A model generated the notes under the pieces. It did no database searches and was not told the DNA's origin. It was given only the letters and a program-made list of their open reading frames with translations. A program made the translations under genes and the position numbers. This document shows positions 39,681 through 40,851 of a stretch of DNA of 64,000 nt, piece by piece. Numbering within the stretch: the stretch's first letter is position 1; each line of letters opens with the position of its first letter. Location of the stretch: assembly GCF_022512515.1 (NCBI RefSeq), contig NZ_JAKWBK010000001.1, positions 1,550,001 through 1,614,000 on the forward strand, written 5' to 3'. Source of the stretch: Paraniabella hibiscisoli (GTDB lineage: Bacteria; Bacteroidota; Bacteroidia; Chitinophagales; Chitinophagaceae).

Positions 39681-40673
39681 TTATATCAGGTTATTAGCCA
39701 CCAGGTATTCGGCTACCTGAACAGCATTAGTAGCAGCACCTTTACGCAGGTTGTCGCTTACGATCCACATATTTAATGTTTTAGGTTGTGTTTCATCGCG
39801 ACGGATGCGACCTACAAAAACCTCATCTTTTTCGTGCGCGTCCATTGGCATAGGATATTGCTGGTTAGCCAGGTCATCAACTACCACAACGCCTGGAGCC
39901 GATTCCAGCAGGTTTCTTACTTCTGTCAGTTCAAATTCATTTTCGAATTCAATATTTACGCTTTCGCTATGACCGCCCATAACCGGTATACGAACGGTAG
40001 TTGCAGTTACTTTAATATTGTCATCACGCATAATTTTTTTAGTCTCGTTCACCATTTTCATTTCTTCTTTGGTGTAACCATTATCTGTGAACACATCAAT
40101 CTGCGGAATAACATTTAAATCGATAGGGTATTTGTAAGCCATCGGGTATTCACTGGCATTGTTTCTTTCACCCATTAACTGATCTACTGCTTTAACGCCA
40201 GTACCTGTTACGCTCTGGTAAGTTGATACAACAACACGTTTAATTTTATATACTTTATGCAAAGGCTGAAGCGCTACTACCATTTGTATGGTGGAGCAGT
40301 TAGGATTTGCTATAATTTTATCGTTAGTCGTCAGTATATCTGCGTTGATCTCAGGAACGATCAATGGTTTTGACGGATCCATTCTCCAGGCAGATGAATT
40401 ATCTACCACGGTTATGCCTGCCGCTGCAAACTGAGGAGCCCATTCGGTTGACGTGCTTCCTCCAGCCGAAAATAAAGCCACAGCTGGTTTTGCTGCAATG
40501 CCGTCTGTCATGCTCACCACTTTATATTTTTTCCCCTTGAACTCAACTTCTTTACCCACACTTCTTTCAGATGCTACCGGAACCAGTTCCGTAACCGGAA
40601 AGTTTCTTTCAGCCAATACCTGCAACATTTTGGTGCCCACAAGGCCGGTGGCGCCCACTACTGCAACTTTCAT
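39681..40673 (-). CDS. asd: Aspartate-semialdehyde dehydrogenase
   Basis: 330 residues, intact. It converts beta-aspartyl phosphate to aspartate semialdehyde, the branch point to lysine (and diaminopimelate), threonine/isoleucine and methionine. The NADP-binding start VAVVGATGLVGTKMLQVL, the catalytic Cys in IIANPNCSTIQMV (near residue 129), the middle PQIDVFTDNGYTKEEMKM and the active-site His in VMGGHSESVNIEFE are all present. It is monocistronic in the visible sequence, with a terminator downstream. The leader (40698-40851) carries a Thr/Ile/Lys-rich peptide, a possible antiterminator and a terminator, described separately. Confidence 0.97.
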   Translation of the reverse strand: MKVAVVGATGLVGTKMLQVLAERNFPVTELVPVASERSVGKEVEFKGKKYKVVSMTDGIAAKPAVALFSAGGSTSTEWAPQFAAAGITVVDNSSAWRMDPSKPLIVPEINADILTTNDKIIANPNCSTIQMVVALQPLHKVYKIKRVVVSTYQSVTGTGVKAVDQLMGERNNASEYPMAYKYPIDLNVIPQIDVFTDNGYTKEEMKMVNETKKIMRDDNIKVTATTVRIPVMGGHSESVNIEFENEFELTEVRNLLESAPGVVVVDDLANQQYPMPMDAHEKDEVFVGRIRRDETQPKTLNMWIVSDNLRKGAATNAVQVAEYLVANNLI

Positions 40674-40697: not shown

Positions 40698-40726
40698 AAA
40701 AAAAGCCTTCCGTATTTACGGAAGGC
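40698..40726 (-). terminator. Leader terminator (attenuator) upstream of asd
   Basis: On the minus strand GCCTTCCGTA-AA-TACGGAAGGC forms a perfect 10-base-pair stem (40705-40726), followed by a run of seven T (40698-40704). This is a classical intrinsic terminator. It lies only 25-30 bases upstream of the asd start codon, between promoter and gene, so transcription must read through it. An upstream segment can pair with its 5' arm instead. Confidence 0.85.
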
Positions 40727-40764
40727 CTGTTAAAAAATTTATGTTCTGCACACAAAAACTACAA

Positions 40765-40772
40765 CCTTCCGT
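40765..40772 (-). promoter_or_regulatory. Candidate antiterminator segment of the asd leader
   Basis: ACGGAAGG (minus strand) is the exact complement of CCTTCCGT within the 5' arm of the terminator. Pairing would remove 8 of the 10 base pairs and prevent the terminator from folding. Its first base is the last base of the leader peptide's stop codon, so a ribosome at that stop would block it. Confidence 0.65.
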
Positions 40773-40813
40773 TACGGATGTTTCTTAATCTTTGTATGTT
40801 TCTTTATTGTCAT
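40772..40813 (-). CDS. Thr/Ile/Lys leader peptide of asd (candidate)
   Basis: A 14-codon frame giving 13 residues, MTIKKHTKIKKHP, then TAA. Nine of the twelve residues after Met are Thr, Ile or Lys, the end products of the pathway to which asd belongs; two His and one Pro complete it. It has the length and position expected of a transcription-attenuation leader peptide such as thrL. The ATG begins only 7 bases after the -7 promoter element, so the mRNA may be leaderless or nearly so, and translation would then not depend on a ribosome binding site. Confidence 0.65.
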   Translation of the reverse strand: MTIKKHTKIKKHP

Positions 40814-40820
40814 TGGGTTG

Positions 40821-40851
40821 CAAAAATAGATTGATGACTGAAATCAACAAA
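40821..40851 (-). promoter_or_regulatory. Promoter of the asd leader
   Basis: On the minus strand, TTTG (40848-40851), 19 bases, then TATTTTTG (40821-40828). Both elements and the spacing match the Bacteroidota promoter consensus TTTG-N19-TAnnTTTG. The transcript should begin within a few bases of the leader-peptide ATG. Confidence 0.75.

Follow-up and report, generated by a model that had tools for sequence, protein, structure and literature searches.

A candidate ribosome-mediated attenuator with a lysine-led leader peptide upstream of asd in Chitinophagaceae

Introduction

Ribosome-mediated attenuators are known, apart from the thr leader of enteric bacteria, from his, ilv, trp, phe and leu, and to our knowledge lysine is absent from the list of amino acids that act through leader-peptide regulators. 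The product of Asd, aspartate-semialdehyde dehydrogenase, is a precursor common to lysine, threonine, methionine and isoleucine, asparagine being an amino acid outside this route. The asd gene of E. coli reportedly lacks a typical attenuation signal, and comparative attenuator surveys, which may include Bacteroidetes, are said to exist.

For Streptococcus mutans, an attenuator-like sequence before asd has been reported (cited in PMC2864571), and in E. coli lysC is placed under lysine control by the lysine riboswitch (PMC12925634), which binds lysine directly, unlike the leader that we propose. The asd motif of Lactobacillales (RF01732) is also a cis element before asd, but from a different phylum. 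In the same phylum as the element described here, clues to leader-peptide attenuation before amino-acid biosynthesis operons come from Flavobacterium psychrophilum, so that this mode of control has already been suggested for the phylum; one section of that paper names hisG and pheA among structured 5′ elements conserved in Flavobacteriaceae, asd not being among the elements named there (PMC9723704). Our literature search, which covered titles and abstract openings with subscription papers mostly outside, returned no Bacteroidota asd leader attenuator and no lysine-coded attenuator; within the literature searched, an asd attenuator in this phylum appears to be new.

Here we describe an element before asd in the Chitinophagaceae that is very probably a ribosome-mediated transcription attenuator, and that would sense mainly lysine and then threonine. 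It resembles the enteric thr leader in having a short frame of cognate codons, a 1:2 stem, a 2:3 antiterminator, a 3:4 terminator and a biosynthetic gene downstream, but that gene is asd and not thrABC, and its codons are mixed and led by lysine, with no run of threonine and isoleucine. What sets it apart from described attenuators is its target gene, its mixed codon content headed by lysine, and a frame that is nearly leaderless.

Results and Discussion

The element in the window

The stretch of DNA analysed, called the window throughout, comprises 64,000 nucleotides from Paraniabella hibiscisoli. An original prediction had listed a promoter, a short frame, ACGGAAGG, a hairpin and asd in order on the minus strand (40698–40851 for the elements before the gene), and direct reading found each of them in place:

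40848..40851, minus strand: promoter −33 element TTTG (direct sequence reading)
40821..40828, minus strand: promoter −7 element TATTTTTG, 7 nt 5′ of the leader ATG (direct reading)
40772..40813, minus strand: leader peptide frame MTIKKHTKIKKHP, 13 codons plus TAA (reading; homologous frames in 92 of 139 upstream regions; lysine and threonine enrichment)
40765..40772, minus strand: antiterminator strand (region 2) ACGGAAGG, exact complement of 40718–40725 (conserved, with moderate covariation)
40718..40726, minus strand: terminator 5′ arm (region 3) GCCTTCCGT (reading, fold, covariation)
40705..40713, minus strand: terminator 3′ arm (region 4) ACGGAAGGC (reading, fold, covariation)
40698..40704, minus strand: T7 tract of the intrinsic terminator (direct reading)
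39681..40673, minus strand: asd, aspartate-semialdehyde dehydrogenase, 330 aa, proposed regulated gene (NCBIfam profiles)

A spacer of 19 nt separates TTTG from TATTTTTG, and 7 nt more lead to the leader ATG at 40813 on the minus strand. The leader stop codon (TAA, 40774–40772) shares one base with ACGGAAGG, which has its exact complement within the terminator 5′ arm, both as predicted. The hairpin with its T7 tract was borne out as well, but not as a perfect 10-bp stem: it has 9 Watson-Crick pairs and a 4-nt loop, AAAT, between GCCTTCCGT and ACGGAAGGC, nine pairs being counted because a tenth palindromic pair would leave a loop of 2 nt. It does lie downstream of ACGGAAGG, at a distance of 38 nt and not the 33 or so first supposed. 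The gene itself is identified by the NCBIfam profile asd_B TIGR01296 (444.5 bits against a cut-off of 324.2), NF011456 also scoring above its cut-off, and its ATG (40673) follows the T tract by 24 nt.

No Rfam family reached its gathering score in the window, and an Rfam identity for the element was rejected, since the 23 permissive matches (up to E 10) all lay below gathering scores. For instance, the enteric Thr_leader (RF00506) scored 14.5 bits against a gathering score of 55, which is at chance level, and RF01732 had no gathering-score match in the window and was not among the 23 matches to E 10. The lysine riboswitch (RF00168) had no window match at its gathering score, and was found in none of 60 family genomes compared to 4 of 14 control genomes, under stricter filters that can lose weak matches.

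Conservation among relatives

A gene for Asd was found in 142 of 147 Chitinophagaceae genomes, the other 5 having no match, and exclusion of three bearers whose gene matches were partial (G046, G107 and G122) left a sample of 139 asd upstream regions from the one family. A script that required a CCTT-type terminator hairpin, a T tract and a leader frame annotated 93 of these, and one with an unrelated peptide (L124) was dropped before counting; a leader frame and terminator thus precede asd in 92 of the 139 regions, from 66 genera. L092 is a doubtful member that falls below the core-alignment threshold, so that core counts refer to 91 leaders, and for L011, L045, L085, L095 and L050 the leader start was set to a nearer in-frame ATG. 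The leaders have the consensus M..(M)KHTKRTKK and lengths of roughly 12–22 codons, and in the 28-sequence alignment described below that of the window is one whole codon shorter than the rest of the family.

An amino-acid attenuator of asd, as originally predicted, is also the best reading once relatives are compared: a CCTT-type hairpin, the only type searched for, occurs in 95 upstream regions, and 92 of these have the short frame. The remaining three comprise L066, whose frame begins with GTG, and two regions with hairpins that appear unrelated (L119 and L124). The apparent GTG of L066, which lies outside the 92, replaces ATG in a leader that retains the TKRTKK core and the terminator. Among the 47 regions lacking an annotated element, 42 are found with the weakest Asd scores (L097–L140) and five are scattered (L066, L071, L080, L088 and L089). 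In the last four of these Asd is 79–81% identical to that of the window and neither leader nor terminator was recognised, making them possible losses.

An order-wide search took in 119 genomes, 109 of them with asd, of which 22 upstream regions (L145–L166) were inspected by eye. The leader was absent from all 21 loci read from other Chitinophagales families, and none was seen in the one region of the same family among the 22 (L157, genome G014). The exact DNA pattern of the commonest form, searched in one genome per species over 84,980 species, gave 29 matches, all directly before asd (28 by script, L245 by reading). Their records are titled Chitinophagaceae, carry named genera, or are Chitinophagales, Sphingobacteriales/Sphingobacteriia or Bacteroidota bins; the genera Lacibacter, Terrimonas, Flavisolibacter, Pseudobacter and Segetibacter we take to be Chitinophagaceae.

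These matches bear on a plainer explanation, in which the hairpin is an ordinary terminator, or belongs to a small RNA, and asd is read from a separate promoter. The distance from terminator to asd varies from 26 to 208 nt among relatives, enough in some genomes to accommodate a second promoter, but the window has just 24 nt between the T tract and asd, the antiterminator and the stem P1 (below) are kept despite having no role in such an arrangement, and the exact pattern matches solely before asd. A separate promoter is, on this evidence, highly improbable.

A stem over the leader codons

Folding of the 116-nt window leader with RNAfold gave a stem of 13 pairs, P1, that had previously been overlooked, in which CAUACAAAGAUUA in the leader codons pairs with UAGUUUUUGUGUG, 3′ of ACGGAAGG and so past the antiterminator:

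40786..40798, minus strand: stem P1 5′ arm (region 1), spanning leader codon H6 through base 1 of K10 (RNAfold, covariation)
40749..40761, minus strand: stem P1 3′ arm (RNAfold, covariation)

The original prediction had the ribosome switch the element by covering ACGGAAGG. We retain this masking as incomplete: the 1:2 stem P1 is also present and covaries, so the layout is the classical one and involves more than masking, and a model in which the ribosome masks GGAAGG only is rejected. P1 completes the classical attenuator layout, the locus holding a short frame with cognate codons, a terminator, an antiterminator exclusive with it, and a stem over the codons that competes with the antiterminator.

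The window leader folds at −34.6 kcal/mol, compared to −17.1 (sd 3.1) for dinucleotide shuffles (z −5.6), and when no ribosome is present its most stable full-length fold is P1 plus terminator. The terminator by itself scores −15.7 kcal/mol, and −25.5 when P1 is added; for the 8-bp antiterminator the value is −10.2. A near-invariant ATA, often within ACATAA, follows the P1 3′ arm and precedes the terminator (about 40740–40742 in the window; columns of first-row positions A72, T73 and A74 in alignment A1, described below). It could pair with TATGT of the P1 3′ arm once P1 is open, or act as a pause site.

A first MAFFT alignment, A1, held all 92 leaders. Because it fails to register the P1 3′ arm, pairing was judged by swap tests and from a second alignment, A2, of 28 leaders. 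In A2, whose members were picked by hand for cleaner register, a choice that favours agreement, P1 and the terminator covary strongly: both sides change in 13 of 23 pairs, and the covariation score is 0.233 against 0.164 in shuffles, with none of 500 as high, though kinship among the leaders means that this and the other shuffle tests and z values overstate significance. Shifting the partners drops the score to 0.109 or less, and the further pair types seen were matched by 17 of 500 shuffles.

The antiterminator covaries moderately, less than P1 and the terminator. Of 500 shuffles, 11 reach its A2 score of 0.209 (0.173 shuffled), 98 its count of pairs altered on both sides, and 1 its number of paired cells. 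The flank test was confined to leaders with standard cores, 64 of the 92 (28 lacking them were left out); the base 5′ of GGRRGG pairs with that 3′ of CCTTCC in 39 of the 64, compared to a permutation mean of 25.9 and none of 2000 permutations as high. Eight flank positions were tested in all; beyond the core-adjacent one only the fifth inner position exceeds permutation (p 0.019) and six do not. Individual leaders provide examples of joint change: three (L042, L064 and L078) have both antiterminator strands altered, GGAGAAG with CTTCTCC, and two (L030 and L046) have GGAAAGG with CCTTTCC, the terminator 3′ arm being altered as well.

When arms were swapped between genomes, native P1 arms paired above the swapped median in 85 of 92 leaders, and the antiterminator was at or above it in 71. 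Against shuffles, the P1 pairing energy beats 95% in 69 leaders and fails to in 23, the corresponding numbers for antiterminator complementarity being 66 and 26.

Codon content of the leaders

Composition was taken from the 1309 residues between leader start and antiterminator. With starts selected by a score that favours K, T, I, N, R and H, and so biases the test, lysine accounts for 383 residues (shuffle mean 214, z 17), methionine for 65 (17, z 12), histidine for 93 (51, z 5.9), threonine for 189 (135, z 5.4) and isoleucine for 140 (121, z 1.9), and asparagine is depleted at 86 (137, z −4.7). Start choice is argued against as the cause of the enrichment because N, R and Q are not enriched. 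The internal methionines may partly be alternative starts. The codons match the end products of the pathway, with lysine, threonine and methionine enriched and isoleucine at z 1.9. Of the Thr/Ile/Lys coding first proposed, lysine and threonine therefore hold, lysine being the most conserved, but isoleucine is barely enriched, and the enrichment of methionine and depletion of asparagine come in addition.

The last core lysine codon is nearly unpaired (its bases pair in 7, 3 and 1 of 91 leaders) and is AAA in 56 and AAG in 24, with asparagine in none. The second core threonine, present in 50 of 91, is written ACC 15, ACA 14, ACG 12 and ACT 9 times. Two histidine codons had been left unexplained by the original prediction. 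The first is CAT in 53 leaders and CAC in 3, and otherwise mostly TAT, AAT or ATT with the P1 partner altered to match; where paired, its first base and partner are CG in 56, AT in 9, TA in 7 and TG in 3. Because these changes track the P1 partner, the first histidine is best taken as a constraint of RNA pairing, and P1 accounts for it; the second falls at a variable position.

The same attenuator might instead take threonine, with isoleucine, as its signal, as the enteric thr leader does, the lysines being A-rich filler. Such a signal would fit the enrichment of threonine (189 against 135 in shuffles), the keeping of a threonine codon through four synonymous forms, and the threonine-rich leaders before thrA at 14 of 30 family loci. 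Yet each of the 92 leaders has at least three lysines, and six (L019, L065, L081, L084, L092 and L094) have no threonine at all; lysine stands at z 17 whereas the equally A-rich asparagine is depleted at z −4.7; and the three best-kept core lysine columns are lysine in 82, 80 and 80 of 91 leaders and asparagine in 2, 1 and 0. We regard a threonine signal as unlikely.

Nascent-peptide arrest, whereby the basic peptide KHTKRTKK would itself stall the ribosome in response to a ligand, would be in keeping with a strongly basic core conserved over 66 genera. The arginine position and the flanks, however, vary widely, the second threonine occurs in just 50 of 91 leaders, the histidine changes follow RNA pairing, and leaders of roughly 12–22 codons are short for it; we find arrest scarcely credible.

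Folding with a modelled ribosome

The leaders were refolded with their RNA masked up to 13 nt beyond the first base of each A-site codon. For transcripts that stop short of region 4, with the ribosome stalled at the fourth core codon, normally the lysine of Thr-Lys, the antiterminator exceeds a probability of 0.5 in 90 of 91 leaders, compared to 2 of 91 with the ribosome on the stop codon. Ribosome-free RNA of this length also favours the antiterminator in 68 of 91 (>0.5), which makes the behaviour of the untranslated state ambiguous. Once the full terminator is included, the antiterminator is below 0.1 in 92 of 92 leaders with the ribosome on the stop codon, and rises above 0.5 with a stall at some codon in 50 of 92; the model therefore requires the co-transcriptional order of events. 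For the window leader with full terminator, the antiterminator exceeds 0.5 with stalls at codons 3–6 (I-K-K-H) and is about 0.5 at codons 7–8 (T-K).

Full-length RNA free of ribosomes forms the terminator (>0.5) in 90 of 92 leaders, the exceptions being L019 and L086, for the latter of which the script had picked a wrong stretch as region 3. That P1 and terminator fold and covary with no ribosome involved, and that P1 overlaps well-conserved leader codons, are what one would also expect of a metabolite- or protein-sensing RNA switch, with the short frame untranslated or incidental. Against such a switch, no Rfam family reached gathering and the 23 permissive matches were all below it, P1 is a plain A/U-rich hairpin in which no aptamer-like core was seen, a nearly unpaired codon is under amino-acid constraint, leaders differ in length by one whole codon, and hisG and thrA have cognate leaders of their own (below). 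We consider it very unlikely.

A proposed mechanism

For the ribosome-mediated attenuator, the following order of events is suggested by the layout and the modelled folds. Transcription would begin just 5′ of the leader ATG, and a ribosome would enter the short frame. When charged tRNA-Lys is scarce, or tRNA-Thr and probably those for methionine and isoleucine, the ribosome would stall on the P1 5′ arm and block P1, so that the emerging CCTTCC would be captured by GGAAGG, the terminator pre-empted and asd transcribed. With good supply the ribosome would reach the stop codon and cover GGAAGG, and the terminator would form and end transcription before asd. If, as we infer, the leader is translated, the hairpin terminates transcription and the codons report the amino acids named, probably with most weight on lysine and the next on threonine, then such a switch would most likely let the cell raise asd when lysine, threonine, methionine or isoleucine is short.

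More tentatively, the leader could be an integrator at the branch point, reading lysine first and then threonine, methionine and isoleucine, and not asparagine; it would then be the first lysine-led leader-peptide attenuator and would fill, in this family, the role that the lysine riboswitch has in other phyla, a possibility we advance with some reserve. For a family with no lysine riboswitch in the 60 genomes examined, the attenuator offers a concrete mechanism of control where the aspartate-family pathways branch, and lysine as the main signal, if true, would add an amino acid to the leader-peptide regulators. The element may also serve as a testbed for attenuators whose mixed codons report on more than one end product.

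Promoter spacing

The promoter class is one we take to be Bacteroidota-type, and with transcription presumably starting a few nt past the −7 element the leader RNA would be nearly leaderless. Of the 92 leaders, 84 have a TAnnTTTG-like −7 motif, sought with a permissive pattern, at most 30 nt from the ATG, compared to 58 of 719 control windows, and 78 of the 84 have TTTG or TTGn 5′ of it. The short distance from −7 element to ATG noted in the original prediction is real (7 nt in the window), but far from being unusual it is the rule among asd leaders, with 66 of the 84 at 7–9 nt. In published maps 5′ ends as short as this are few: in B. thetaiotaomicron, 5′ UTRs shorter than 10 nt make up about 3.7% of the total (PMC7366714), and 5.5% of the F. 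psychrophilum mRNAs examined are leaderless (PMC9723704).

Leaders before hisG and thrA

A similar picture emerges for other biosynthetic genes of the family. In the window genome hisG (L169) is preceded by the leader MTFNNIHIHHHFTNLQQ and thrA (L178/L179) by MYNIYTHISQVYIVATATTTTITTTR. Leaders with at least three histidines stand before hisG at 28 of 30 family loci (L209–L238), and leaders with at least four threonines before thrA at 14 of 30 (the window genome and L180–L208), with the caveats that these leaders were located by maximising histidine or threonine content, which biases the pick, and that the 30 thrA loci may include some other aspartokinases. As with asd, a −7-like element often lies, judged by eye, a short way 5′ of the ATG, and the codons are cognate (HIHHHH, TTTTITTTR), but these leaders are runs of a single amino acid, whereas asd leaders mix lysine, threonine and methionine or isoleucine. 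The classical attenuator layout, with frames starting near the promoter, serves asd in this family, and apparently his and thr genes too.

No leader was recognised by eye upstream of the aspartokinase-family genes L172–L174 and L177, of ilvD (L170), or of homoserine dehydrogenase (L167), whose frame looks broken. Of the two leaders in the window genome, that of hisG is predicted to form a terminator and a stem covering the codons, and for that of thrA the predicted fold shows no evident terminator. Both thrA (G000:C1, about 173.4–174.3 kb) and ilvD (2498.5–2499.5 kb) of the window genome are split across frames, possibly through assembly errors.
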